Positions 24,035 to 63,702 of a stretch of DNA of 64,000 nucleotides are shown here, one piece after another. Position 1 is the stretch's first letter. Every line of letters starts with the position of its first letter. Where the stretch lies: positions 62,001 through 126,000 of the forward strand of contig NZ_KB894805.1 in NCBI RefSeq assembly GCF_000374645.1, written 5' to 3'. The position numbers were made by a program, and so were the translations under genes. The stretch is from Arhodomonas aquaeolei DSM 8974. GTDB lineage: Bacteria > Pseudomonadota > Gammaproteobacteria > Nitrococcales > Nitrococcaceae. The notes beneath the pieces are model-generated. The model made no database searches. It worked only from the letters and a program-made list of their open reading frames with translations, and was not told the DNA's origin.

Positions 24035-24541
24035 TCAGTCCACGGATACCGGCGGGTCCATGTCGTCGTCCCAGCCCGCGTCGGGTTCGGGATACAGTGC
24101 CATCCAGCTCTCCAGCTCCGCGGCGTGTTCCGACTCCTCGGCGGCGAACTCGGCGGCGAGGCCGCGCAGCGTCGCGTTACCGGTGTTCCGGGCGCAGTGG
24201 TCGTAGAAACGGTGGGCCGCGGTCTCCGCGGCATGGGCCAGGCGCAGGGCGTGGGCCGGCGTCATCAGATAGTGGCTCGCCGACATCTCCGCCGACTCCG
24301 GGCTCTCGTCGTCCGGCCACTGGTACTCCCAGGGCTTGAGCTGTGGCAGCCCGCCCTCGGACTCGGCGCGCTCGCGGGCCTCCGCCAGGTGCAGCCGCGA
24401 GAAGTGGGCCATCTTGCGGAACAGGTCCACCACGTCCGGATTGTTGTGGACCTCCAGCGCGTCGGCGAGCTCGTCGTAGCGCTGGGCGGCCTCGTCCTCC
24501 AGTGCGACGGCGTGGGCGAGGAACAGGGGCACAGATTCCAT
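24035..24541 (-). CDS. Ferritin-like / rubrerythrin-type protein coupled to korAB
   Basis: A 168-residue helical protein with ferritin-like diiron motifs: EDEAAQRYDELADALE in the first half, and later AETAAHRFYDHCAR and EFAAEESEHAAELESW, the latter an ExxxH pair. The C-terminal tail is acidic. It lacks the rubredoxin domain of classical rubrerythrin. The ATG overlaps the korB stop by one base (TGATG); a GTG one codon upstream is an alternative start. Being locked into the kor operon suggests it protects the oxygen-sensitive enzyme by removing peroxide or oxygen, or handles iron for its clusters. That role is inference. Confidence 0.75.
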   Translation of the reverse strand: MESVPLFLAHAVALEDEAAQRYDELADALEVHNNPDVVDLFRKMAHFSRLHLAEARERAESEGGLPQLKPWEYQWPDDESPESAEMSASHYLMTPAHALRLAHAAETAAHRFYDHCARNTGNATLRGLAAEFAAEESEHAAELESWMALYPEPDAGWDDDMDPPVSVD

Positions 24542-25377
24542 CACTGTTCTCCTGCGGCCAGGGCGAACTGCCCGGCGATGCGGTCGAGGTCCGCCGCTTC
24601 CGCCCGGTCGGGGGTGTAGGGCGGCGCGTCGCTGCGGTAGAGCAGGCCCTGGGTGAAGTTGTCGTCGTCCATGAGCTGGGCGAAGGCCGCACGGCGGTCC
24701 GAGGTGGTCTCGAAGCCTTCGTGGACGTGCTTCTTGTACTCCATCTGCTCGGGCCGGTAGGTGATGCAGGGGGAGAGCACCTGGATGAAGGAGAAGCCGG
24801 GGTGCTCGATGCCCTGGGCGATGAGGTGGGCAAGGCCGTTGGGGTCACCGGAGAAGCCCCGGGCGATGAAGCCCGCGCCGGCGCTGAGCGCCAGCTCCAG
24901 CGGCCGGAGCGCCGGGATATGCGTGCCCTCCGGGGTGAGCTTGCTGCCTTCCCAGTCCGCCTCCGTGGTCGGCGAGGCCTGGCCCTTGGTCATTCCGTAG
25001 ACGGCATTGTCCATGACGACGTAGGTCAGGTTGGCGTTGCGGCGGCAGGCGTGCAGGAAGTGGTTGCCGCCGATGGAGAAGCCGTCGCCGTCACCACCCA
25101 TGGCGAGCACGGTCAGCTCCGGGCGCGAGACCGCCAGTCCGGTGGCCACCGGCAGGGCCCGCCCGTGAACGCCGTGGAAGCCGTAGACCGCGGCGTACGC
25201 GGGCAGCCGCGCCGAGCAGCCGATCCCGGAGATGAAGGCCACCTCTTCCGGCGCCAGCGACAGCCCCGACAGCGCCTTGGTCATGGCGTTGAGGACACCG
25301 AAATCGCCGCAGCCGGGGCACCACACCGGCTTGACGCCGGACTTGAAATCCTTGGGCCTGAATTCGCACGTGCTCAT
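24541..25377 (-). CDS. korB: 2-oxoacid (2-oxoglutarate) ferredoxin oxidoreductase beta subunit
   Basis: The 278-residue beta subunit binds thiamine diphosphate and a [4Fe-4S] cluster. VWCPGCGDFGVL, GIGCSARLP and SPCITY supply the cluster cysteines. AMGGDGDGFSIGGNHFLHA is the thiamine-diphosphate motif, followed by MDNAVYGMTKGQASPTT, typical of KorB. With KorA it would convert 2-oxoglutarate and CoA to succinyl-CoA, CO2 and reduced ferredoxin, or run in reverse. The start at 25377 overlaps the korA stop by one base (TGATG), so both subunits are translationally coupled; the frame continues upstream inside korA without meaning. Confidence 0.92.
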   Translation of the reverse strand: MSTCEFRPKDFKSGVKPVWCPGCGDFGVLNAMTKALSGLSLAPEEVAFISGIGCSARLPAYAAVYGFHGVHGRALPVATGLAVSRPELTVLAMGGDGDGFSIGGNHFLHACRRNANLTYVVMDNAVYGMTKGQASPTTEADWEGSKLTPEGTHIPALRPLELALSAGAGFIARGFSGDPNGLAHLIAQGIEHPGFSFIQVLSPCITYRPEQMEYKKHVHEGFETTSDRRAAFAQLMDDDNFTQGLLYRSDAPPYTPDRAEAADLDRIAGQFALAAGEQ

Positions 25378-27104
25378 CACGCCGCCTCCCGCTTCGCCAG
25401 CTCCCGCAGCTCGGTGACGATCTCGCCCGGGCGCATGGGCAGCGGCCCGGGCCGGTGGAACGCCACCAGCTCCGCGCTGATGTCGTAGTGGCCCCGCAGG
25501 TACGCGAGGAACTGTCCGCCGTGGTTCTGCTCGACCACCAGGGCCCGCTCCACCCCGGCCAGTGCCCGGGCCATGTCCGCCGGGCGTGTCGGCGCGAGCA
25601 GCCGTACGGAGATCAGCCGCACGTCGATCCCGTCGGCGGCGAGCCGGTCGACGGCCTCGCGTGCCGCCGCGGTGATCGACCCCCAGGTGATCACGGCGAG
25701 TACGCCGTCGCCCTCGATGTCCGCCCAGTAGTCGCCGTAGCCGTGGCGTTCCAGCTTGTCCCGGCGCTTGTCGAGCTGGGCCTGGTGGTGAGCGGCCTGG
25801 GACGAGGGGGTGCCGGTCTCGCCGTGTTCGAGGCCGTCGGCGGTGTAGGCGCCGCCGGGCATACCGGGCAGGCTCATGGGGGAGACGCCGTCCTCGGTGA
25901 CGCGGTAGCGGCGGTAGTCGTTCGCCTCGCCTTCCGAGGGGGTGCGCCGCGCGGTATCGACGTCCCGCAGCGCCGGCTCGGGCACGATGGCGCGGCCCTG
26001 GCCCATGGCCTGGTCGCTGAGCACGAGCGCCGGTGTCTGCAGGGCCTCGCTCAGCGAGACCGCCCACTGGGTCGCGTTGATACAGTCCGTGACGCCGTTC
26101 GGCGCGACCACCAGGTGCGGCGCGTCGCCATGGAGGCCGTGGACCGCGATATCGAAATCCCCCTGCTCCGACTTGGTGGGGATGCCGGTGGACGGCCCGC
26201 CGCGCATGACGTCGACCACGACCATCGGCGTTTCCGAGGCCACGGCAAGCCCCAGCGTCTCGGTCATCAGTGCGAGCCCCGGACCCGAGGTGGCGGTAAG
26301 CGAGGGTGTGCCGCCGAAACTCGCGCCCACGCACATGTTCGCCGAGGCGAGCTCGTCCTCCGCCTGAACCAGACATCCGCCGACGCGCGGGAGCTGCGGT
26401 GACAGCCATTCAAGCACGTCAGTGGCGGGCGTGATGGGGTAGGCGGCAACGAAGCGTACACCACCGCGCAGTGCCCCCAGGCCCGTGGCCTCGTTACCGC
26501 TGATCAGCCAGCGCGGGGTGTGCGCGGCGGTCAGTGGCTCCGGCGTCTCACCGAGGGTGGCGGCCGCCTCCCGGCCTTCCTCCAGGCAGCGCAGGCCGCT
26601 GGTCACCGCCGCCTCGCCGCGGCGGGCGAGGGTCTGGTGTACGCGGGCCTCCAGGGGCTCCACCGGCAGGCCGGCGAGCGCGGCGAGCACACCGAGGGCG
26701 ATCATGTTCACGCGTCCGCCCTCAATGCCCTTGGCCATCTGCTTGAGCGCCACCTCAGCGGTGCGTGGTCCCGCACCGGCTATGGGCGCCGGCAGGGGGC
26801 CGGCGTCCGGGTCGTGGAGCACGAGGGTGCTGGCGTCGATGGGTATCTCGGCGGCGAAGCGTTCGATGTTGCTCCAGTCGAAGGCGAGCACGAGGCGGTA
26901 GGTGTCCGGCGGGGCCTCCACCGGCCGGGATGACAGGCGCAGCAGCGCTGCGGCCTCGCCGCCGCGGATCTGCGGGCCGAAGGAACGGGTCATCAGGCCG
27001 TACCAGCCGGCGTCGCCGGCCGCGGAGAGCAGCAGCTGGCCGGCGGTCATCACGCCGGTGCCGCCACTGCCCATGATCGCCAGTGAGATGGAGCCGTCGG
27101 GCAT
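25377..27104 (-). CDS. korA: 2-oxoacid (2-oxoglutarate) ferredoxin oxidoreductase alpha subunit, gamma-alpha fusion
   Basis: A 575-residue subunit in which the gamma domain is fused ahead of the alpha domain. Residues 1 to about 190 are gamma-like (IMGSGGTGVMTAGQLLL, SFGPQIRGGEAAALLRLS). From about 195 the alpha domain follows (LISGNEATGLGALRGGVRFV, AYPITPATDVLEWLSPQL, SLTATSGPGLALMTETLGLA). The C-terminal portion carries the transketolase C-like fold. This is the two-subunit KorAB layout common in proteobacteria. A candidate FNR/ANR box and -10 lie upstream (27138-27178), implying induction at low oxygen. Pyruvate or a branched-chain oxoacid cannot be excluded as substrate. Confidence 0.9.
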   Translation of the reverse strand: MPDGSISLAIMGSGGTGVMTAGQLLLSAAGDAGWYGLMTRSFGPQIRGGEAAALLRLSSRPVEAPPDTYRLVLAFDWSNIERFAAEIPIDASTLVLHDPDAGPLPAPIAGAGPRTAEVALKQMAKGIEGGRVNMIALGVLAALAGLPVEPLEARVHQTLARRGEAAVTSGLRCLEEGREAAATLGETPEPLTAAHTPRWLISGNEATGLGALRGGVRFVAAYPITPATDVLEWLSPQLPRVGGCLVQAEDELASANMCVGASFGGTPSLTATSGPGLALMTETLGLAVASETPMVVVDVMRGGPSTGIPTKSEQGDFDIAVHGLHGDAPHLVVAPNGVTDCINATQWAVSLSEALQTPALVLSDQAMGQGRAIVPEPALRDVDTARRTPSEGEANDYRRYRVTEDGVSPMSLPGMPGGAYTADGLEHGETGTPSSQAAHHQAQLDKRRDKLERHGYGDYWADIEGDGVLAVITWGSITAAAREAVDRLAADGIDVRLISVRLLAPTRPADMARALAGVERALVVEQNHGGQFLAYLRGHYDISAELVAFHRPGPLPMRPGEIVTELRELAKREAA

Positions 27105-40879: not shown

Positions 40880-41943
40880 CGATCACGGAGATCATCGTCC
40901 CCGCCCAGGACGTGGCCTGGCTGCCCTGGGCGGTGCAGTACTTCTTCTTCATCGGGCTGAGCACCGCCGCGGCACTGCTGGCGTCGGCGGGCGAGGCGGG
41001 CGGCCCGCTGCGGCGGCTGCAGCCGGCGGCGGTGCTGGTCGCCGTCTCCGCCGGGGTGGTCGCGCCGGTGGCGCTGCTCGCTGACCTCCACCAGCCCGGG
41101 CGGTTCTGGCACTTCTACGCGCATTTCACGCCATGGTCGTGGATGTCCATCGGCTCGCTGCTGCTGCCGGCCTACGTGGCGGCCCTGCTGGCCTACGCGG
41201 TGGCCTGGCAGCACTGGCGCGGCGGGGCGGGGCGGCGGCGCACCGCTCTCGCCCTGGCGGTGGTGCTCGCGGTGCTGGCGCTCGCGGTGCTCGTCTACAC
41301 CGGCGCCGAGGTCATGATCGTGCGTGCCCGCCTGCTCTGGCACACCTACTGGCTGCCGCTCAACTTCGCGCTCACCGCACTCGTGGGGGCGGTCGGGGCG
41401 GTGCTGTTCACCCTGCGCTGGTCCGGCGTCGCCTCCGGGGACGACTACTGGCTGGCGAACCGGGTCCAGCTCGCCGCGCTCGTGGCCACCGCCGCGGCCG
41501 CCGTCGGCTGGGCGGTGACCGGCGCGCTCGGCCTCGGCGCCGGCGGCGGGGCGTCGTTCGCCGAGGCGCTGCGCCTCGCCGTCGAGCAGCCGTTCTGGCG
41601 GGTGATGTACGCCGGCTCGGCGGCCGTGGGGGGGCTGCTCATCGCGGGGACGGCGCTCGCGCTGCGCCGCCCGGCGCTGCTCGCGCACAGCTGGTGGCTG
41701 TCGGTGCCGGCGCTGCTGTGTACCTGGTCGTTCCGCTGGGTCGTGTTCATCAACGTGCAGACGGTGCCCAAGTACGGCGCCGGGCTCTATCCCTACGAGC
41801 TGCCTCTGGGCAGCGACGGTCTGCTCGGCATCGTCGCCACCTTCGGCCTGTGGGTCGCCGTCGTGATCATCGTCTCCACCGTCGCCGCCCGCTGGCCCCA
41901 GGGTCCGGCGGCGGCCGCTCCCCGGGAGGTCGCTCATGGATAA
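40876..41943 (+). CDS. ttrC: Tetrathionate reductase membrane subunit TtrC, NrfD-like
   Basis: A 355-residue integral membrane protein with about nine helices of the NrfD/PsrC family, which oxidises quinol and hands electrons to TtrB. Visible family features are QYFFFIGLSTAAALLASAG, LLADLHQPGRFWHFYAHFTP, and TYWLPLNFALTALVGAVGAV. The C-terminal helices include FRWVVFINVQTVPKYGAGLYP, typical of TtrC. The start overlaps ttrB and the stop overlaps ttrA by eight bases, so all three are translationally coupled. Longer in-frame sequence upstream lies within ttrB. Confidence 0.9.
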   Translation: MTITEIIVPAQDVAWLPWAVQYFFFIGLSTAAALLASAGEAGGPLRRLQPAAVLVAVSAGVVAPVALLADLHQPGRFWHFYAHFTPWSWMSIGSLLLPAYVAALLAYAVAWQHWRGGAGRRRTALALAVVLAVLALAVLVYTGAEVMIVRARLLWHTYWLPLNFALTALVGAVGAVLFTLRWSGVASGDDYWLANRVQLAALVATAAAAVGWAVTGALGLGAGGGASFAEALRLAVEQPFWRVMYAGSAAVGGLLIAGTALALRRPALLAHSWWLSVPALLCTWSFRWVVFINVQTVPKYGAGLYPYELPLGSDGLLGIVATFGLWVAVVIIVSTVAARWPQGPAAAAPREVAHG

Positions 41944-44900
41944 AACACGCCGCAATCTGCTCAAGGGCGGGCTCGCCGCCGGCGGTCTCGGTGTCTTCGC
42001 CGCCGGCTATGCCGGCCCCGCCGTCAACGCCGTGAGGGGGCTCGTCCGCGGTACCGCCGGGGTGCCCACGCAGGACCGCATCGCCGGCAACGCGCTGCCG
42101 CCGGAGTGCCGTATCGACCCGGAGACCGGGGCGGTCACCATGGCCGAGGGGCAGGTCGTCAGCCTGACCCAGTGCTTCGGCTGCTGGACGCTGTGCGGCG
42201 TCCGCGCCCGTGTGGACACCACGGGCAACCGGATCCTGCGCATCGCGGGCAACCCCTACAATCCGCTCTCCCACGAACGGCCCGAGGACTACACCACACC
42301 GGTGCGCGAGGCGTTCGCCCGGCTGGGCGGCGAGTCCGGCCTGGACGGGCGCTCAACGGCCTGCGCCCGCGGCGCCGCCATGCTGGAGCAGCTCACCAGT
42401 CCGTACCGTGTCACGCAGCCGCTCAAGCGGGTGGGGCCGCGGGGCGGTGGCCGCTGGCAGACCATCAGCTTCGAGCAGCTCGTCGAGGAGGTGGTCGAGG
42501 GCGGCGATCTCTTCGGCGAGGGCCACGTGGACGGGCTGCGCGCGGTACGCGATCTGGATACCCCGGTGGATCCCGAGAGCCCCGAGTACGGCCCCCGGGC
42601 GAACCAGCTGCTGTTCACCACCGGCGCCAACGAGGGGCGGGATGCGCTGGTCCGGCGTTTCACCTTCAACGCCTTCGGCAGCCGCAACTACGGCCACCAT
42701 GGTGCCTACTGCGGCTTCGCCTTCCGCGCCGGCTCCGGCGCCTGGCTCAACGACATGCGCAAGTACGCCCACGTCAAGCCGGACTGGGAGCACGTGCGTT
42801 TCGCGCTGTTCATGGGCACGGCGCCGGCGCAGTCCGGCAAGCCGTTCAAGCGCCAGGGCCGGCAGCTCGCGAGCGCCCGGGCCGAGGGCCGGCTGGAGTA
42901 CGTGGTCGTCTCGCCGGCGCTGCCGAACAGCTCCAGCCTCGCCAGCCAGCCCGGCAATACCTGGCTGCCCATCCGGCCCGGTGGGGATACGGCCCTGGCC
43001 ATGGCGATGATCCGCTGGATCATCGCCCACGAGCGCTACGACGCCCGTCACCTCGCCCAGCCGGGGCCCGCCGCCATGGCCGCCGCGGGCGAGCCGAGCT
43101 GGGGCAACGCGACGCACCTGGTGGTCAGCGAGCCGGGGCATCCGCTGGAGGGCCGGCTGCTGCGCGGCAGCGACCTGGGCTGGCCCGCCGACGGCGACGA
43201 CGAGGTGTTCGTGGTCGCCGACGCCTCGGACGGCCACTGGCGGGCGCACACCGCCGCCGCGCCGGCGCGGCTGTTCGTGGATACCACCGTGACCGTCGAC
43301 GGCAGCCCCGTGCGGGTGAAGTCCGCCCTGCAGCGGCTCCGCGAGGAGGCGGAGCGGTTCACGCTGGCGGAGTACAGCGCCGAGTGCGGTGTGCCGGTGG
43401 CGGCCATCGAGGCCCTGGCGCGGACATTCACCAGCTACGGCAAGCAGGCGGTGGTGGATGCCCACGGCGGGCTGATGAGCGGCAACGGCTTCTACTCCGC
43501 CTTCGCGGTGATGATGCTCAACGCCCTGGTGGGCAACCTCAACGCCCGCGGCGGCACGGCCCTGGCCGGTGGCCACTACCCGGAGTTCGGCCGGGGGCCG
43601 CGCTATGACCTCAAGACCTTCCCGGGCATGGTCAAGCCGAAGGGGGTGTTCCTCTCGCGCAGCCGCTTCCCCTACGAAAAGACCAGCGAGTACCGCCGCA
43701 AGGTCGAGGCCGGCGAGTCGCCGTATCCGGCGCGGGCGCCGTGGTACCCCTTCTCGCCGCCGATCCTGACCGAGCACCTGGCCTCCGCGCTCGCCGGCTA
43801 TCCCTATCCGGCCAAGGTCTGGATCAACCACCTGGCGAACCCGCTGTACGGCCAGGCCGGTCTGCGCAGTGCGGTGGCGGAGCGGCTGAAGGACCCGCAG
43901 CGCCTGCCGCTGATGGTCGGCGTGGATGCCTTCGTCAACGAGACCAATGCGTTCGCGGACTATATCGTCCCGGACACCATCACCTACGAGAGCTGGGGCT
44001 TCACCGCGCCGTGGTCCGGCGTGCGGCGAAAGACGAGCACCGCGCGCTGGCCGGTGGTCGAGCCGCGCACGGCGCGCACCGCCGAGGGCGAGCCGGTGGC
44101 GCTGGAGAGCTTTCTGGTGGCGGCCGCCAGGCGCCTGGGGCTGCCGGGCTTCGGCGACGGCGCGATCCCGGACGCCGACGGCGGGCTCCACGGTTTCCAC
44201 CGCGCGGCGGACTTCTACCTGCGTGCGGTGGCGAACGTCGCCCATGTCGGCGAGCCGGTGCCGGAGGCGGACGACGACGACCTCGCCGTCACCGGCGTCA
44301 CCCGTCTCGAACCCGATCTCACCGGGATCCTGACGGCCGGCGAATGGCGGCGTGCCGCGTATGTGCTGGCCCGCGGCGGCCGTTTCGGGGCCGAGCCGGA
44401 AGGCGACGCCCTGCCGCGCTGGGAACGCGGCCAGTGCCTGTGGAACGAGACCGTGGCGGCGAAGCGCCATGCCGTGACCGGCGAGCGCTTCAGTGGCTGC
44501 CCGACGTGGTATCCGGCGCGGCTCGCCGACGGTAGCGATGCGCGCGAGGCGTTCCCGGCGCAGTCGTGGCCGTTTCGGCTGACCGCCTACAAGTCGAACC
44601 TGCAGAGCTCGTCGTCCATCGGTTCGCCCCGGTTGCGCCAGGTCCACCCGGAAAACCCCGTCGGCATCAACCGCCGGGACGCCGAGCGGCTCGGCATCGC
44701 CAACGGCGAGGCGGTGATGCTGGTGACCCCTGGCGGGCGGGTCTCCGGGGTGGCATTGCTGCGCGACGGCGTCATGCCCGGCGTGCTCGCCGTGGAGCAC
44801 GGCTACGGCCACCGCGAGCTCGGTGCCCGCGCCCACGTGGTGGATGGCCGGGAGACGCCCCACGACCCGGCGCTCGGCGCCGGCGTCAACCTCAACGACC

Positions 44901-45007
44901 TCGGCATCGTCGACCCGACCCGCGAGGCACCCAACGGCTGGGTCGACTGGGCCTGCGGCTCGGCGGTGCGGCAGGCGCTGCCCGCGCGGCTGGAACGGGC
45001 CACCTGA
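41936..45007 (+). CDS. ttrA: Tetrathionate reductase catalytic subunit TtrA (molybdopterin)
   Basis: This 1023-residue protein is the large Mo-bisMGD subunit, which reduces tetrathionate to thiosulfate in the periplasm. A Tat signal (KTRRNLLKGG) starts it. The [4Fe-4S] ligands are Cys80, Cys83, Cys87 (CFGCWTLC) and Cys143. The molybdenum ligand is probably Cys259 (HHGAYCGFAF), as expected for TtrA/PsrA-type enzymes. The C-terminal cofactor domain includes SSSIGSPRLRQVHPENPVGI and AVEHGYGHRELG. Length fits TtrA. A strong hairpin follows the stop, separating it from the porin. A role with other polysulfur substrates cannot be excluded. Confidence 0.92.
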   Translation: MDKTRRNLLKGGLAAGGLGVFAAGYAGPAVNAVRGLVRGTAGVPTQDRIAGNALPPECRIDPETGAVTMAEGQVVSLTQCFGCWTLCGVRARVDTTGNRILRIAGNPYNPLSHERPEDYTTPVREAFARLGGESGLDGRSTACARGAAMLEQLTSPYRVTQPLKRVGPRGGGRWQTISFEQLVEEVVEGGDLFGEGHVDGLRAVRDLDTPVDPESPEYGPRANQLLFTTGANEGRDALVRRFTFNAFGSRNYGHHGAYCGFAFRAGSGAWLNDMRKYAHVKPDWEHVRFALFMGTAPAQSGKPFKRQGRQLASARAEGRLEYVVVSPALPNSSSLASQPGNTWLPIRPGGDTALAMAMIRWIIAHERYDARHLAQPGPAAMAAAGEPSWGNATHLVVSEPGHPLEGRLLRGSDLGWPADGDDEVFVVADASDGHWRAHTAAAPARLFVDTTVTVDGSPVRVKSALQRLREEAERFTLAEYSAECGVPVAAIEALARTFTSYGKQAVVDAHGGLMSGNGFYSAFAVMMLNALVGNLNARGGTALAGGHYPEFGRGPRYDLKTFPGMVKPKGVFLSRSRFPYEKTSEYRRKVEAGESPYPARAPWYPFSPPILTEHLASALAGYPYPAKVWINHLANPLYGQAGLRSAVAERLKDPQRLPLMVGVDAFVNETNAFADYIVPDTITYESWGFTAPWSGVRRKTSTARWPVVEPRTARTAEGEPVALESFLVAAARRLGLPGFGDGAIPDADGGLHGFHRAADFYLRAVANVAHVGEPVPEADDDDLAVTGVTRLEPDLTGILTAGEWRRAAYVLARGGRFGAEPEGDALPRWERGQCLWNETVAAKRHAVTGERFSGCPTWYPARLADGSDAREAFPAQSWPFRLTAYKSNLQSSSSIGSPRLRQVHPENPVGINRRDAERLGIANGEAVMLVTPGGRVSGVALLRDGVMPGVLAVEHGYGHRELGARAHVVDGRETPHDPALGAGVNLNDLGIVDPTREAPNGWVDWACGSAVRQALPARLERAT

Positions 45008-45121: not shown

Positions 45122-46408
45122 ATGACACACGGTCACACGCGTCTCGCCACCGTCGCCCTCGGTCTGTGCGTCGGCATCGGCTGGGCCGGGCTCGCCCGCT
45201 CCGCCAACTGGCTGATGCTGCAGGGCACCGAGCGCGCGGAGAATCCGCCCCTGGCCCGGGTTTGGGGCTTCATCCAGCCGGAATACCAGCGCGACTTCAG
45301 CGACAGCGGGCCGGGGGATGCCTACATCCCGCCGAAGCTGATCGGCCCGGGGCTGGACGAGCAGTCCGGCTTCAACATCAAGCGCGCCCGTGTGGGCGTG
45401 CGTGGCGCCGCGCACCCGGGGGACCCGCGGATCAACTACTTCGTGCTCGCGGAGTTCGGCAACAACGGCCTCACCAACGGTGGGCGCTACGACAGCTACA
45501 GTCCCCAGCTCACCGATGCCAGCGTGACTGTGAACGCCATCGACGGTGCGCGGGTGCGTGCCGGTCTGTTCAAGACACCGGGCTCGGAGGAGGGGATGCA
45601 GGGCATCATCGCGCTGCCCTACGTCAACTACACCACCGTCACCAACCAGCTCCTGCTCGAGCGCTTCCCCGAGGCCGGGGAGACGAACGTCCCGCCGCAG
45701 TCGACCCCGGACGCGGACATGAACGCCTTCTCCAACCCCGTCGGGGCGTTCCGCGATACGGGCGTGCAGGTCTTCGACGCCTTCGACGCCGGCCGCTGGG
45801 AGCACAGCTACGCGGTGATGCTCGGCAACGGCAGCGGCGTGCAGATGGACGAGTCGGACGGTGACGAGGACCTCTATCTCTACTGGTCCTCCGCGTACCT
45901 CTTCGACGGTCCCGGCGGCGGCCCTTTCCGGCCGACGCTGAAGTTCTTCGGCTGGTACCAGGGCGGCGAGCGCACGGACGCCTATGACAGCAGCCGGACG
46001 CAGGACCGCGTCCGCTACGGTGTCGGCGCGTACTACCTCCGGCGTCCGTTCCGGGTGAGCGCGGAGTTCATGCAGGGCAAGGGCATGATCTTCCAGGGCC
46101 AGCACGCTCCGGAGAAGCTGTTCAACGACTATCGCGCTCGCGGCGGCTACATCGAGGGCGCCTACTTCGTCCCCGGCACGCCCTGGGAACTGCAGCTGCG
46201 CTACGACGCCTACCGCCGCAACCTCGACCAGCCAACCCGGGCCACCTTCGAGACCTGGACGGCGGGCGTGCAGTACCACTTCACGAAAAAGACCCGGGCC
46301 ACGCTCAACTATGCGGTACGGGACTTCAGCTCCGAGGCCGCCGGGCCCGACGCCCACCTCGACGGGGTGGGGGACAGGCTTGCGCTGCAGCTCACCGTGC
46401 TGTTCTGA
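45122..46408 (+). CDS. Outer-membrane porin, phosphate-selective OprO/OprP-like
   Basis: A 428-residue beta-barrel protein with a signal peptide (cleavage near GLARSANW). It contains the OprP/O-type features FNIKRARVGVRGAAHPGDPR and GARVRAGLFKTPGSEEGM, and ends in the outer-membrane C-terminal phenylalanine (LQLTVLF). It follows ttrA on the same strand after a hairpin and faces tsdA. Placed between the two tetrathionate/thiosulfate loci, it may admit these anions across the outer membrane. That link is inferred from position; the anion-porin class is seen. Confidence 0.8.
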   Translation: MTHGHTRLATVALGLCVGIGWAGLARSANWLMLQGTERAENPPLARVWGFIQPEYQRDFSDSGPGDAYIPPKLIGPGLDEQSGFNIKRARVGVRGAAHPGDPRINYFVLAEFGNNGLTNGGRYDSYSPQLTDASVTVNAIDGARVRAGLFKTPGSEEGMQGIIALPYVNYTTVTNQLLLERFPEAGETNVPPQSTPDADMNAFSNPVGAFRDTGVQVFDAFDAGRWEHSYAVMLGNGSGVQMDESDGDEDLYLYWSSAYLFDGPGGGPFRPTLKFFGWYQGGERTDAYDSSRTQDRVRYGVGAYYLRRPFRVSAEFMQGKGMIFQGQHAPEKLFNDYRARGGYIEGAYFVPGTPWELQLRYDAYRRNLDQPTRATFETWTAGVQYHFTKKTRATLNYAVRDFSSEAAGPDAHLDGVGDRLALQLTVLF

Positions 46409-46441: not shown

Positions 46442-47419
46442 TCACTGTGCCTTCGCCCCGGTGCCGATGGTGTGCCCGTCGCGCTCGTCACCGTAGAGGC
46501 AGGTGTGGTTGTGCCAGTCGCGGTCGGTGCTGGCGATATCGCCCTCGAAGCGTGGGTCCTGCGGGCGTTCGTGGCTGTTGATATAGGCGGCCACGTCCCA
46601 CGCCTCCTGGTCGCTGAGTACGCCTTCGGCGGCCGCCGGGTTCGCCTTGCCGAGCGGCATGTTGTACTTGATGAAGGCCGCGGCGGTGTTGATGCGGTGC
46701 ATGCCGGCGCCCCAGTTGTACGCCTTCGGGCCCCACAGCGGCGGGAAGATCTGGGTGCCGTCGGCGGCGAAGCGGCCGCGGCCGTCGTCGCCGTGGCAGA
46801 TGGCGCATTCCTTGGTGTAGACGGTCTTGCCGCGGTCGATGCTGTAGCCGCCGTCCGGCTTCGGCACCGCCTTGTAGCCGCGGCCCGGGGCGGCCTTGCC
46901 GACGGTCAGGCCCTGGGCCATCCAGAACATGTATGCCTGCATGTCCTTGAGGACCTGGCTGTCCGGCGGCGGTGGATGGCCGGCCTCGGAATCCTGGGCG
47001 TTCATGGAGTAGGTGAAGCAACCGCGGATGCGCTCGTCCATGGTGTTCACGTGGTCGTTCTTGCCACGGTATTTCGGGTAGACGGGCCATGCGCCCCACA
47101 ACGGCGCGGAGTTGGCGACGGTGCCGCCACCGACGTGGCAGTTGGCGCACTCCTGGCCGTTGCCGACGTACTGACCGGCGTTCTTGCGGGTATGGATGAA
47201 TGCCTCGCGGCCGCGGCGCACGGAGTCGCCGAACGCGCCGTCTGGGATGGCGTCGGGGGAGGGGGCCTGGTGGTAGCCCGCCTCGCCGGCGTCCGGGCTC
47301 GGGGCCAGCTCCTTCTGGGCGCGCAGGTCGTCGGCGGCATGGCCGGCACCGGCGGCGAACGTGAGCGCGAGGCCTAGCGCGACGGCGGCCGGGATCGCGG
47401 CGTGCATGCGGGTCGTCAT
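46442..47419 (-). CDS. tsdA: Thiosulfate dehydrogenase / tetrathionate reductase TsdA, diheme cytochrome c
   Basis: TsdA joins two thiosulfates to tetrathionate, or runs the reverse, in the periplasm. A signal peptide ends near AGHAADD. Heme motifs are CANCH (91-95) and CAICH (205-209). Cys134 in RGCFTYSMNAQ matches the unusual cysteine ligand of heme 1 known from Allochromatium TsdA, and FIKYNMPLG carries the methionine-type ligand region of heme 2. Length (325 residues) is typical. It lies downstream of the diheme c4 gene and is convergent with the porin and the ttr locus, so this organism can move between thiosulfate and tetrathionate in two ways. Confidence 0.9.
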   Translation of the reverse strand: MTTRMHAAIPAAVALGLALTFAAGAGHAADDLRAQKELAPSPDAGEAGYHQAPSPDAIPDGAFGDSVRRGREAFIHTRKNAGQYVGNGQECANCHVGGGTVANSAPLWGAWPVYPKYRGKNDHVNTMDERIRGCFTYSMNAQDSEAGHPPPPDSQVLKDMQAYMFWMAQGLTVGKAAPGRGYKAVPKPDGGYSIDRGKTVYTKECAICHGDDGRGRFAADGTQIFPPLWGPKAYNWGAGMHRINTAAAFIKYNMPLGKANPAAAEGVLSDQEAWDVAAYINSHERPQDPRFEGDIASTDRDWHNHTCLYGDERDGHTIGTGAKAQ

Positions 47420-47448: not shown

Positions 47449-48093
47449 CTACTGCCGGGTGGCGGGCAGCGCGGCGAAGTATTCGGCCACGGCGGCTGCC
47501 TGGTCCGCCTCGAGGCGTCCGGCGACAGAGGCCATCAGGCCGTGGGGGTCGTCGTGGCGGTCGCCAGACTGCCAGGCCTCGATCTGGTTGCGCAGGTAGT
47601 TCGCGTGTTGGCCGGCGAGTGGCGGGAACACGCTACCCACGCCGCGGCCGTCCGGGCCATGGCAGGTGGTGCAGGCGGGCACGCCCTGCTCCCAGAGGCC
47701 GTCCTGGGCGATGCGCCGGCCCTGCGGGTGGTCGCCAGGCGTGCCGCCATCGCCGGCGGGGGGCGCCATCTGCGCGTAGTGCTCGGCGACCGCGGCGATG
47801 TCGGCGTCGGATAGCGCCGAGGCGGTCGGCTTCATCACCGCGTTGACGCGGCGGCCGTCGGCGAAGGCGTGGAGCTGGGCGGCCAGGTACTCTGCGGGCA
47901 GGCCGGCCAGCCGCGGGTAGCCGGCGGCGGCGTTACCGCCGCCGTCCGCACCGTGGCAGCTCGCGCAGGGCGGGGCGCCGTCGCCATTGCCGCTGCTGGC
48001 GACGGTCGCGCCGCGGTCGGCGCCGACCGCGGCCAGGGGAACGGTGAACGCCAGGGCCACAAGGGCCCGGCGCATTCCATGGAATGCGGGCAT
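47449..48093 (-). CDS. tsdB: Diheme cytochrome c4-type electron acceptor, TsdB-like
   Basis: A 214-residue periplasmic protein with a signal peptide and two cytochrome c domains: CASCH (43-47) and CTTCH (141-145), each followed by PRLAGLPAEYLAAQLHAF or PPLAGQHANYLRNQIEAW, the c4 repeat. It lies 29 bases upstream of tsdA on the same strand, the usual position of TsdB, the electron-transfer partner of TsdA. It would carry electrons towards a terminal oxidase, or back. The start at 48093 follows GGAGGAGGAG. Confidence 0.85.
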   Translation of the reverse strand: MPAFHGMRRALVALAFTVPLAAVGADRGATVASSGNGDGAPPCASCHGADGGGNAAAGYPRLAGLPAEYLAAQLHAFADGRRVNAVMKPTASALSDADIAAVAEHYAQMAPPAGDGGTPGDHPQGRRIAQDGLWEQGVPACTTCHGPDGRGVGSVFPPLAGQHANYLRNQIEAWQSGDRHDDPHGLMASVAGRLEADQAAAVAEYFAALPATRQ

Positions 48094-60207: not shown

Positions 60208-63200
60208 CTATCCGCCCGCCGGGTTGTCCGCCTGGGCCTCCCGCTCGAAGACGTAGTCCAGCCACTGGCCGGTGAGGCGGTCGGTGAGGCGGTTCTGCTG
60301 CTGCCGCGCGGAGAGGTTGTCGATGTCGATCCACGACAGCGGCTGGTCCTGGCCGGCGCAGGTGAATACCGGGCGGGTGCGCTCGCCGGTATCCGGGTCG
60401 ATCTGCCACTGCAGGCACTGGGCGCACACGCCCTTCATCATGCACTGCATGGGCGAGCCGACGGTGCCGAAGGCCTCCACACCGGGGGCGAAATAGCTGC
60501 GCAGCTCGCCCTTGAGTGCGGCCTGGAAGCCCTTGAGCAGTCCGGTCCCGCCCATGACCATAACCCGGTCCACGTCCGACAGCGGGATGCCGTCGGCGGG
60601 GCCGACCTCGCCGTCGCCGTAGCGGCGGACGAGGTCGAGCATGTCCGTGGCGACGAGGCTGGTGTCCTGCGGCCGGCGGGCCTCGATGGTGGGCTCGCCG
60701 GCGGTGCACCAGAGGATCTGGTCCGCGCCGCCCTCCAGCTCGTCCTGGTGGTCCACGTCGCCGGCCCTGCCGAAGGCGGCGACGTAGAGCACGCGGTTGC
60801 CCGCGGCACGCAGGGCGGCGCCGATGTCGAGCATCACCGCCGCGCCCCAGCGCCCGGCGACGACCATGATGGTCTTGCCGGTGGGCATGTCCGTGGGCGC
60901 GCCGGTGGGGCCCATGAGTACCAGCGGGTCGCCGGGCTGGAGCCGGCCGACGAGCCGCGGGCCGGCGCCCCACTGGAGGATCATCAGCCGGATGCAGTCG
61001 CCGTCGACGCCGGTGCCGCTGACCGTGAGCAGCGGGACCTGGAGTCGTGTGCCCTCGACCACCGGGCTGGTACTCTCGAAGGTCTGCAGCCGGAAGAACT
61101 GGCCGGCGCGGAAGTTCCGTGCGGCGAGGGGGGCACGTACCCAGACCTCGGTCATCGCCGGATTCTCGCGGTTGACCGAGACCACCCGGGCGCTGAACTG
61201 CTCGTCCATCTCGGCAAGGAAGCCCGCGGCGCTGGCGTCCGAGGCCTGCGGTTTGGACTGCACCGAGCGCAGGATCTGCGGATAGCTGCGCTTGGCGGAG
61301 GCGATGGCCTTGACCACGCTGCCATTGAATGCCGGGTGGGTGTCGCCGATGAAGCTCACCCGGTGGCCGTCCTCGTCATAGGAGGTGAACGGCCCGAACT
61401 CCGGGGACTTGCAGTGATCGGCGTCCTCCACGGGCTGGAGCTCCTCGCGCCGGGCGATGTGCGGGAGGAAGTGGTTGCCGTTGAGCGCGAAGGTGCGCGG
61501 GTACTCGCGCTCGTAGATGGTGTTGGGCACCGTGCCCGCGGCGACGAAGATCGAGCGGGCGTCCAGCGTCACCTCCTCGCGGGTGGCGAGCCAGCGCCCC
61601 TCGACGCGCTGCATGCGCCGGCAGACCAGCGACTTCACGTGGTCGTACCGGTCCACGTCCGCGTACAGCGGCTCCAGGCCCTCCGCGTAGAAGAGCCCCT
61701 CCTCCATGGCCTTGGTGAGCTCCTCGTGGTTGCGCGTGTACGCCGGCGAGGCGTTCATACCCTTGCGGTAGGCGATGGTCACGCCGCCCCACTCACGCAG
61801 CAGCGGCGCGAAGTCCGGCGCCTCGCCGGCGGCCGCGGCGCGCTCGCGCTCGGCGCGCACCGCCCGGCCGTGGGCAAGGAATTCGGCGAGGGTCTCGCGG
61901 TCCTCGTCGTTGAGCGAGGCGGTCACGGCCTCCTCGCCACGGGCGGCGGTGAGGGTCTCGTAGCGGTGGAGGACCTTCTCCACCTGCTTGATGTAGTAGG
62001 CCTGCACCTCAGTGGCGGTGTCGACGCCGGTGAGTCCGCCGCCGATCACCACCGCGGGCAGCCGTACCTGGAGGTTGGCGAGGCTGGAGTCTTTGCCTGC
62101 GCCGGTGAGCTGCAGCGCCATGAGGAAGTCGTTCGCCTGGCGCATGCCGCGGGCGAGGCTGTTGCCCATGTGCAGGACCCGCGGCAGACCGGCGCCGGTG
62201 GCGATGGTGACGTGGTCGAACCCGAGCCGCCAGGCGTCCTCAAGGGTGACGGTGCCGCCCAGGCGCACGCCGCCGTGGACGCTGAAGTTCGGCCGCCGGG
62301 CCAGGGTCAGGTAGATGAGCTTGAGGAAGTTCTTGTCCCAGCGCACGGTGATGCCGTACTCGGCGACGCCGCCGAAGCCCATCAGGATGCGCTCGTCGAG
62401 GTCCTCCACCAGGTCGGACCAGCGTTCCACCGGCTCCTCCAGCAGCGCCCGAGGCAGGGGCTCGATCTTGAGCCCGTCCACGCCCACCACGGTGCAGCCC
62501 GCCTGGGTGAGGTGATGCGCCATGGTGAAGCCCGCCGGGCCCATGCCGGCCACCAGCACCCGGCGGCCGTTGTCCGCCGCCGGCAGGAACTGCTCGGCGC
62601 GCAGGGGGTTCCAGCGGGTGAACAGGTGGTAGAGCTCCACGCCCCAGGGCAGGTCGAGGACGTCGGTGAGGCAGCGCGTCTCGATCTGCGGGATATCCAC
62701 CGGGTCCTGCTTCTGGTAGATACAGGCCTTCATGCAGTCGTTGCAGATGCGGTGGCCGGTGGCGGGGATCATGGGGTTGTCCACCATGGCCACGGCCAGC
62801 GCGGCGAGGGTGTGTCCGTCGCGCTTGAAGGAGTGCATCTCGGAGATCTTCTCCTCGACCGGGCAGCCGGTGAGGGTGTTGCCGAGCGGGTCCTCCTTGA
62901 GGCCGAGCTCCGGGGAGCCCTTCTTCTCCGGGAAGCCCTTGGAGCAGAAGTCGCCGTCGTGCTCGTGGCAGTAGATGCAGTAGTGCACCTCGCCCTGAAC
63001 GGCGCGGGCGCTGGCGCGGCCGTCCGTGAGCCCGAAGCCGTCGCGGCGGCGCTTGTGGCCCTCGCCGGCCTCGCGGCGTGCGACGCCGTCGCCGGTCTCC
63101 TGCAGCGGCACCAGTGCGGTGTGGTCGACGCGCTGGGGCAGCCGGAAGCTGGTCCAGCCGGCGACGGTGCGGGCGGCCTCCGGCTCCTTGCGTGCGAGCT

Positions 63201-63702
63201 TGCACCAGGCGGTGACGCGCTCGATGGCCTCGGCGTTGGCGTCGCTGTCGGCCAGCAGGCCCATCGCGTAGGTGGCGACGCGGTGCTCGCGGTCGCCGTC
63301 GTGGCCGCCGGTGCGCTCCTCGAGCCAGGCGTCCAGCTCTGCGAAGGACGTCTCCACCGGCCGGCGGTGTTTTTTGACCCGCCGCTGGACGAACTCCTGC
63401 TTGAAGCCCATGACCACGTCGTGGGAGAGGGTGGCGGCGCGGGCGCGGTCCAGCGCGGCGCCGATGTCGAACAGCTCGCCGAGGAATTCCTCCAGTTCTG
63501 GGCCCAGCTCCAGCAGCAGCGCGCTGGTCTCCGTGGCGGACAGGGGTTCGCCGCGGCGGTAACGCAGCAGGCGGGTGGCGAGTTCAGGCGCCCGGGCGGC
63601 GAGGCGGTCACGGAACAGCGCGTCAAGTCGGGCGAGGCCGCCGGGCTGCTGAAGGGCCTCGAAGCTCAGGCCGAAGCGCTCGAGTGCGGAGTCGAGATTC
63701 AT
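60208..63702 (-). CDS. Large FAD/iron-sulfur pyridine nucleotide oxidoreductase, single-chain Nfn/GltD-PyrK-like fusion
   Basis: A 1164-residue protein with a composite design. Residues 1 to about 215 are helical with no recognised motif. Next is a cysteine cluster (Cys242, 245, 253, 280), then a GltD-like [4Fe-4S] motif (Cys320-323-327 and a later cysteine). Two Rossmann folds follow (VAGMGPAGFTMAHHL near 376 and VVIGGGLTGVDTATEV near 550), as in glutamate synthase small subunit/NfnB. The last 300 residues are a ferredoxin-reductase module (FRAGQFFRLQ, VMGGTGLLKGFQAAL) ending in a [2Fe-2S] pattern Cys1087-1093-1096-1115, like PyrK/NfnA. It may link ferredoxin to NAD(P)H. I do not know its substrate. 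Confidence 0.75.
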   Translation of the reverse strand: MNLDSALERFGLSFEALQQPGGLARLDALFRDRLAARAPELATRLLRYRRGEPLSATETSALLLELGPELEEFLGELFDIGAALDRARAATLSHDVVMGFKQEFVQRRVKKHRRPVETSFAELDAWLEERTGGHDGDREHRVATYAMGLLADSDANAEAIERVTAWCKLARKEPEAARTVAGWTSFRLPQRVDHTALVPLQETGDGVARREAGEGHKRRRDGFGLTDGRASARAVQGEVHYCIYCHEHDGDFCSKGFPEKKGSPELGLKEDPLGNTLTGCPVEEKISEMHSFKRDGHTLAALAVAMVDNPMIPATGHRICNDCMKACIYQKQDPVDIPQIETRCLTDVLDLPWGVELYHLFTRWNPLRAEQFLPAADNGRRVLVAGMGPAGFTMAHHLTQAGCTVVGVDGLKIEPLPRALLEEPVERWSDLVEDLDERILMGFGGVAEYGITVRWDKNFLKLIYLTLARRPNFSVHGGVRLGGTVTLEDAWRLGFDHVTIATGAGLPRVLHMGNSLARGMRQANDFLMALQLTGAGKDSSLANLQVRLPAVVIGGGLTGVDTATEVQAYYIKQVEKVLHRYETLTAARGEEAVTASLNDEDRETLAEFLAHGRAVRAERERAAAAGEAPDFAPLLREWGGVTIAYRKGMNASPAYTRNHEELTKAMEEGLFYAEGLEPLYADVDRYDHVKSLVCRRMQRVEGRWLATREEVTLDARSIFVAAGTVPNTIYEREYPRTFALNGNHFLPHIARREELQPVEDADHCKSPEFGPFTSYDEDGHRVSFIGDTHPAFNGSVVKAIASAKRSYPQILRSVQSKPQASDASAAGFLAEMDEQFSARVVSVNRENPAMTEVWVRAPLAARNFRAGQFFRLQTFESTSPVVEGTRLQVPLLTVSGTGVDGDCIRLMILQWGAGPRLVGRLQPGDPLVLMGPTGAPTDMPTGKTIMVVAGRWGAAVMLDIGAALRAAGNRVLYVAAFGRAGDVDHQDELEGGADQILWCTAGEPTIEARRPQDTSLVATDMLDLVRRYGDGEVGPADGIPLSDVDRVMVMGGTGLLKGFQAALKGELRSYFAPGVEAFGTVGSPMQCMMKGVCAQCLQWQIDPDTGERTRPVFTCAGQDQPLSWIDIDNLSARQQQNRLTDRLTGQWLDYVFEREAQADNPAGG

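Follow-up and report, generated by a model that had tools for sequence, protein, structure and literature searches.

A single-chain Nfn-type oxidoreductase in Arhodomonas aquaeolei and other Gammaproteobacteria as a candidate NADPH:ferredoxin enzyme

The closest described systems are the NfnAB/NfnI enzymes (P. furiosus, 5jca; T. maritima, 4ylf), which combine a GltD-like large module with two sets of [4Fe-4S] ligands and an FAD site and an FNR/PyrK-like small module that carries a [2Fe-2S] motif, and the archaeal NfnII/Xfn (5vj7), which has two subunits, a small half without the GGGxG loop and Asp at the first [2Fe-2S] position. P. furiosus NfnII is reported to act as a plain NADPH:ferredoxin reductase and to have its NADH site blocked (PMC8097209), and a bifurcation of electrons to some acceptor that is not NAD+ has also been proposed for NfnII (PMC6085437). 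Fused Nfn homologs that end in the NfnA-like part appear as 'pattern C' in a survey, where they are given as uncharacterised proteins of Proteobacteria and Actinobacteria, about 200 amino acids (aa) longer than other fused forms (Liang et al., 2019, PMC6405883). Here we analyze a gene in a stretch of 64,000 nucleotides from Arhodomonas aquaeolei DSM 8974 (contig NZ_KB894805.1, positions 62,001 to 126,000; hereafter the window), which encodes both Nfn-like parts in one chain. We propose, at a probability of about 0.5, that the product belongs to the Nfn lineage and acts as a single-chain NADPH:ferredoxin oxidoreductase, which resembles NfnII/Xfn rather than the NADH-coupled NfnI and replaces the ferredoxin/flavodoxin-NADP+ reductase Fpr in its carriers.

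Architecture and predicted cofactor sites

The gene is an intact open reading frame (ORF) of 1164 codons, with its ATG at 63702 and its stop ending at 60208. The preliminary description of the window had named a 1164-residue enzyme combining NfnB-like (GltD) and NfnA-like (PyrK) parts, and this is supported by sequence, structure model and fold search, with the strand now fixed as minus. The AlphaFold2 model of the full chain has a mean predicted local distance difference test score (pLDDT) of 89.4 and a predicted TM-score (pTM) of 0.90, and the comparison with NfnAB places it close to both NfnI-L and NfnI-S. The best Foldseek matches of the large part are the large chains of Xfn, which comes first, and NfnI (TMt 0.82-0.83), and the C-terminal part matches the NfnI small chain 5jca_S (TMt 0.87, root-mean-square deviation (rmsd) 3.0). 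VIA-align superposes model residues 215..816 on 5jfc_L with Z 22.1, rmsd 2.5 and 438 aligned residues at 25% identity. Profile matches of the C-terminal part are 5jca_S, 4ylf_A and 1ep3_B. The PyrK-like assignment of this part is kept, and the earlier wording 'flavodoxin-reductase' is better replaced by ferredoxin-reductase (FNR/PyrK) type.

Relative to NfnI, the protein is one chain with L followed by S, has an added helical N-terminal domain, and carries inserts after C253 and at about residues 567-634. The order of its parts is that of pattern C, with the NfnB-like part first and the NfnA-like part last, but it is longer still and more distant. The homologs in the survey are reported as 40-90% identical to C. 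kluyveri NfnAB, whereas the window protein shares 25% identity with P. furiosus NfnI-L, and the survey, judged by this reported range, therefore probably does not include the present family (PMC6405883). The 963-residue 'NfnA' of the Thermococcus sibiricus NfnABC complex (9n5u) is a weak sequence match.

Conservation was assessed in an alignment of 63 sequences, i.e., the window protein and 62 others from 80 homologous loci; 12 of the 80 loci, of which several are partial and some full-length, were left out, as were 6 of the remaining 68, which had a stop in the matched range. In the large module, C242, C245, C253, C280, C320, C323, C327 and E341 are invariant in 63/63. By hhalign (probability 95.9), these eight residues align with their seven Cys and one Glu counterparts in the cluster domain of the separate, normal GltD encoded by the same genome, and they are predicted to bind two [4Fe-4S] clusters. 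Glutamate synthase, too, is reported to have a Glu ligand on one cluster (PMC8097209). The Cys242-280 region had been described as an additional, unexplained cluster; since its Cys residues align with the first cluster motif of GltD, this 'extra' domain is the ordinary first half of a GltD-type cluster domain, and what is new in it is an insert of about 23 residues between C253 and C280. The FAD motif GxGPAG is likewise invariant, as are the second Rossmann motif GGGLT (G554-T558) and residues Y645 and R646, all aligned to GltD; we take the GGGxT and YRR/K motif to be the NADPH site of the large module. A helical insert of about 65 residues (about 567-634; about 61801-62004, minus) lies inside the NADPH-binding domain and is absent from GltD.

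The small module departs from NfnI at two sites. Where P. furiosus NfnI-S and T. maritima NfnA have the dinucleotide loop GGGVG and Xfn-S has GAYTG, the window protein has AGRWG. The GGGxG loop is missing, in diverse ways, from the window protein and 43/62 homologs, and is kept in 19/63 sequences (mostly Methylococcales, one Myxococcus, two Gammaproteobacteria). The second site is the [2Fe-2S] motif, whose four Cys (C1087, C1093, C1096, C1115) are invariant in 63/63; the first position is Cys in the window protein and Asp in the 4ylf_A and 5vj7_B fragments, and Asp(Cys)3 ligation is named in the title of a reference in PMC8097209. The Pfam DHODB [2Fe-2S] model gave no match on the Arhodomonas genome, despite the four-Cys motif. 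It is the changed NADH loop which likens the protein to NfnII, though its S-like half is not specially close to Xfn in sequence and matches Xfn-S weakly (E 0.11).

The earlier suggestion of electron bifurcation with NADH is consequently not borne out for this protein. A true NfnI-type transhydrogenase in one chain would use its GltD-like half for NADPH, its NfnS-like half for NAD+ and the distal [4Fe-4S] cluster for ferredoxin. It is favored by the kept cluster ligands, the kept NfnS fold, the 19/63 sequences with GGGxG and an S-like half nearest to NfnI-S by sequence (E 8.8e-7). However, the missing loop, the Cys at the first [2Fe-2S] position and the presence of the membrane transhydrogenase PntB in most carriers (19/25, against 66/115 non-carriers in the class-wide sample below) speak against it, and we consider it rather improbable. 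NADH-coupled bifurcation is possible in the clade keeping GGGxG and unlikely in the window protein. In the sub-clade L066-L075 and L077-L085 (mostly Methylococcales, one Myxococcus), the loop is GGGLG and the N-terminal domain is mostly longer; this sub-clade may differ in chemistry from the clade of the window protein.

Alternatively, the oxidation of NADPH might be bifurcated, with the [2Fe-2S] cluster as the exit by which the high-potential electron reaches some acceptor that is not NAD+, as is proposed for NfnII (PMC6085437). The four Cys are invariant while the NAD loop varies, and the cluster thus looks kept under selection without NADH. Against this, no acceptor gene travels along, with no conserved neighbor in 88 loci, and P. 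furiosus NfnII is apparently not bifurcating (PMC8097209). This alternative is unlikely, if still a real prospect.

The additional N-terminal helical domain noticed earlier is confirmed as residues 1-184, which modeled alone reach pLDDT 95.4 and pTM 0.71. R49, F78, E139, W166 and W183 are invariant in the 63 rows. Fold searches of this domain gave no convincing match in the PDB (best Foldseek E 0.9, best VIA Z 4.5), which is not proof of a new fold, and no Pfam family matches it in the window protein, with scattered single matches only in other members. It is part of a wider family, as the match to the NCBIfam model NF005128 (PRK06567) spans residues 10-711 and includes it. This is the closest family (E 4e-178), although the score of 594.3 bits is below its cut-off of 1072; in a phylum-wide sample, 13/299 genomes have a match at 1e-60, none of them above the cut-off.

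The NF005128 name, 'putative bifunctional glutamate synthase subunit beta/2-polyprenylphenol hydroxylase', would make the protein a small subunit of glutamate synthase, and a protein likened to it by name alone is assigned a glutamate synthase role in Neorickettsia (PMC5481527). The GltD-like fold agrees with such a role. However, the genome has its separate GltD, the score with the small-subunit model TIGR01317 is 50.2 bits (cut-off 447.7), the NfnS-like half is extra, and no neighbor of any kind is conserved in the 88 loci, where GltB itself was not searched for. The role is disfavored to the point of being barely plausible, and the name looks wrong, given the separate GltD and the low model score.

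The preliminary description had also called the enzyme undescribed. This holds insofar as no biochemistry of the protein was found in the open-licence papers of PubMed Central (PMC), but its domain order is that of pattern C and a related model exists in NF005128.

Distribution of the family and its relation to Fpr and FdxA

The distribution was followed in a class-wide sample of 140 gammaproteobacterial genomes (137 genera) and in a second set of 59 relatives, which is clumped by family; 5 genomes are common to both. The gene is carried by 25/140 class-wide genomes, with a match of E 1e-300 or better, and the other 115 have no match at 1e-30, which leaves a clean gap. Homologs occur in 39/59 relatives, some split over contigs, and three of the listed matches have one stop. 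Identity over the full length is 70-77% inside the same family group and 52% in a more distant class member. The nearest named matches are genomes and metagenome-assembled genomes (MAGs) of Ectothiorhodospiraceae and Nitrococcus (71-73%), and further matches come from Acidithiobacillus, Ignatzschineria, Legionellales and Coxiella MAGs, Methylococcales, Myxococcus and Archangium. The homologs form a coherent gammaproteobacterial family. Two genomes (G076 and G048) have two gene copies each.

The Fpr gene is distributed in the opposite way. At the threshold used (E <= 1e-15), there are 52 Fpr matches in the 140 genomes; four are weak (1e-24 to 1e-17; G059, G068, G142, G159), all in non-carriers, and were included in the tests. 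Fpr is present in 2/25 carriers and 50/115 non-carriers (Fisher p 0.0005), and among the family-clumped relatives in 7/39 carriers and 14/20 others (p 0.0001). The Arhodomonas genome itself has no Fpr match at this threshold and four genes labeled as FNR type. Kinship was corrected for with a FastTree SucA tree of the 111/140 genomes with SucA, including 21/25 carriers; two of its entries are fragments. On this tree, Fpr occurs in 2/21 carriers and 42/90 non-carriers. Pagel's dependent model is the better one (likelihood ratio 14.1, 4 degrees of freedom, p 0.007), with a fitted rate of Fpr loss about ten times higher in carriers. By parametric bootstrap, a mean of 8.3 joint occurrences is expected and 2 are seen (p 0.004; based on the 2524/20000 simulations in which the number of Fpr genomes was similar), and the independent-pairs test goes in the same direction as Pagel (3.8 opposite, 0.1 same). 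Altogether five families were compared by Fisher, three by Pagel and four by proximity; after the Bonferroni factor, Fpr stays below 0.05 in both the Fisher and the Pagel test, and FdxA by Fisher and by proximity but not by Pagel.

The ferredoxin FdxA is found in 25/25 carriers and 90/115 non-carriers (Fisher p 0.008), and co-occurrence with ferredoxin genes, which had been suggested as a check on the earlier prediction, is thus seen as a positive that is weak after tree correction. In addition, 3 carrier genomes have fdxA no more than 5 kb from the gene, where 0.17 would be expected (p 0.0007); one FdxA gene (G065) was counted as two matches, and two of the three genomes share the same divergent arrangement, which may be one event. 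The same proximity test gave 0 for POR_N, 0 for SucA and 1 for PntB. Among the 94 homologous loci, an FdxA match is found in the flanks of six. In L052 (Acidithiobacillus MAG) and L022 (Proteobacteria MAG), the gene directly follows fdxA: an in-frame ATG lies 19 nt after fdxA in L052, and in L022 it overlaps the end of fdxA by 13 nt, if the chosen ATG is the start. In both (L022:1110-2398 and L052:6687-7960), a HEAT-like repeat protein and fdxA are directly upstream of the gene, and the repeat protein, fdxA and the gene are a possible three-gene unit. fdxA lies 2-4 kb away in L010, L030 (Acidithiobacillus) and L060 (Coxiella MAG), and the sixth locus is L093, the G057 locus. In G076, fdxA is about 3.4 kb upstream of one of the two gene copies.

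The proposed NADPH:ferredoxin oxidoreductase is based on the observed ligand conservation, the fold, the absence of GGGxG, the Fpr anti-occurrence and the proximity of fdxA. From these we infer its cofactor loading, electron direction, partner and physiological role. NADPH would bind in the GltD-like module, at its second Rossmann fold, and reduce the FAD of that module. In carriers, the enzyme would take over the job of Fpr, i.e., provide reduced ferredoxin for biosynthetic enzymes; Fpr of E. coli would share this physiological role, while it has 248 aa, lacks a GltD half and is anti-distributed with the gene. As the [2Fe-2S] ligands are kept and the NADH loop is lost in the clade of the window protein, the NfnS-like half might offer electrons a second way out, to another partner, or might be a remnant with a structural or regulatory function. 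The helical domain might serve in docking or oligomerisation. The earlier prediction of a ferredoxin-linked NAD(P)H enzyme thus stands as the best reading of ligands, fold and the FdxA/Fpr pattern, but not in its link to korAB.

Several points weigh against this proposal. The enzyme activity is predicted from sequence, the residues at the a-FAD motif position vary, the S-like half is closer by sequence to NfnI-S than to Xfn-S, and with GGGxG retained in part of the alignment, the family may lack a single chemistry. The Fpr anti-occurrence is a correlation, and the independent-pairs test, the stricter one, is not significant (median p 0.125, and 0.25 with traits exchanged). Carriers with Fpr do exist in both sets (2/25 and 7/39), and 65/140 genomes are without both the gene and Fpr, so other reductases, outside the scoring, must exist. 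The FdxA association is reduced to a Pagel p of 0.075 and a bootstrap p of 0.022 after tree correction, and FdxA is common everywhere, including the 90/115 non-carriers.

A bolder version would be a single-chain bifurcator outside anaerobes, splitting the electrons of NADPH to FdxA and, via the four-Cys [2Fe-2S] cluster, to a high-potential acceptor other than NAD+ which docks on the helical domain. We consider this quite unlikely; if true, the protein would be what generally charges ferredoxin in roughly a sixth to a fifth of gammaproteobacterial families (25/140 genomes). As for the preferred NADPH:ferredoxin oxidoreductase, 88/140 class-wide genomes have no Fpr match, so that the supply of reduced ferredoxin is a gap for many Gammaproteobacteria, and the gene is a candidate in the 23 of these 88 that carry it. 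It would also extend Nfn-type machinery, known mainly from work on anaerobes, to bacteria that in many cases are aerobic, such as Methylococcales and Acidithiobacillus, and would correct a misleading database name (glutamate synthase/polyprenylphenol hydroxylase).

KorAB, neighboring genes and other associations

The window does contain korAB, as described earlier, but about 33 kb from the gene. A KorC-like 2-oxoglutarate:NADP+ system is known from Azoarcus evansii, and the protein might by analogy be the electron-transfer subunit of KorAB, for which the shared window speaks. The suggested partnership is not supported: neither korA nor korB was found in the flanks of the 94 homologous loci (tblastn 1e-10; flanks up to 8 kb, many shorter), and the co-occurrence check proposed for korAB came out negative, with POR_N in 10/25 carriers and 50/115 non-carriers (Fisher p 0.83, tree-corrected p 0.29) and none within 10 kb of the gene in the class sample. 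Ordinary SucA is moreover present in 21/25 carriers, and a KorC-like role is strongly disfavored and very improbable.

Two replacements were tried and rejected. Replacement of SucA does not fit its presence in 21/25 carriers and 90/115 non-carriers, and the Arhodomonas genome has SucA besides korAB. Replacement of the membrane transhydrogenase fails as PntB is not rarer in carriers (19/25 vs 66/115).

In the window, the gene stands alone, with a divergent transporter-like gene upstream and a convergent murI-like gene downstream. Both labels were assigned by eye without a family search, as were those of the HEAT-like ORF, FdxA and the four FNR-type genes. The gene has a guanine-plus-cytosine (GC) content of 0.709 (window 0.710), and 0.947 at third codon positions (GC3). 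Among the 88 loci (L007-L094), some of which share a genome, no conserved operon was found; the largest clusters of neighboring ORFs consist of shadow ORFs of the gene, judged by the positions of the representatives, and the commonest real cluster occurs in 8 loci.

Table 1. Positions in the window of the gene, its predicted domains and sites, and other genes mentioned in the text.
Feature	Residues	Positions	Strand	Basis or remark
Whole gene, single-chain Nfn-type oxidoreductase, 1164 aa		60208..63702	minus	ORF, homologs, structure model
All-helical N-terminal domain	1-184	63151..63702	minus	model, alignment
GltD/NfnL-like module, predicted two [4Fe-4S], FAD, NADPH	186-816	61255..63147	minus	VIA-align to 5jfc_L
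Predicted ligands of two [4Fe-4S], ~23-residue insert after C253	242-341	62680..62979	minus	alignment
Second Rossmann motif GGGLT and Y645-R646, predicted NADPH site	550-647	61762..62055	minus	alignment
NfnS/PyrK-like module	838-1122	60337..61191	minus	Foldseek 5jca_S, profile matches
AGRWG at position of NfnS GGGVG dinucleotide loop	949-953	60844..60858	minus	alignment
Predicted [2Fe-2S] ligands C1087-x5-C1093-x2-C1096-x18-C1115	1087-1115	60358..60444	minus	alignment
korA-type 2-oxoacid:acceptor oxidoreductase alpha subunit (context only)		25377..27104	minus	korAB pair assigned to TIGR03710
korB-type beta subunit (context only)		24541..25380	minus	overlaps korA end by 1 or 4 nt depending on start codon
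Neighbors of TtrA-like gene		45122-46408, 46442-47419, 47449-48093	plus, minus, minus	

Two further gene groups were observed in the window. A rubrerythrin-like gene (24035-24544, minus) lies just downstream of korAB. A TtrA-like catalytic subunit of tetrathionate reductase is encoded at 41936-45007 (plus), with a score of 1497 bits for NF011567, below the cut-off of 1750. Next to it are a gene for a phosphate-selective-porin-like protein and two genes for c-type cytochromes, of which one has a SoxA/TsdA-type domain.

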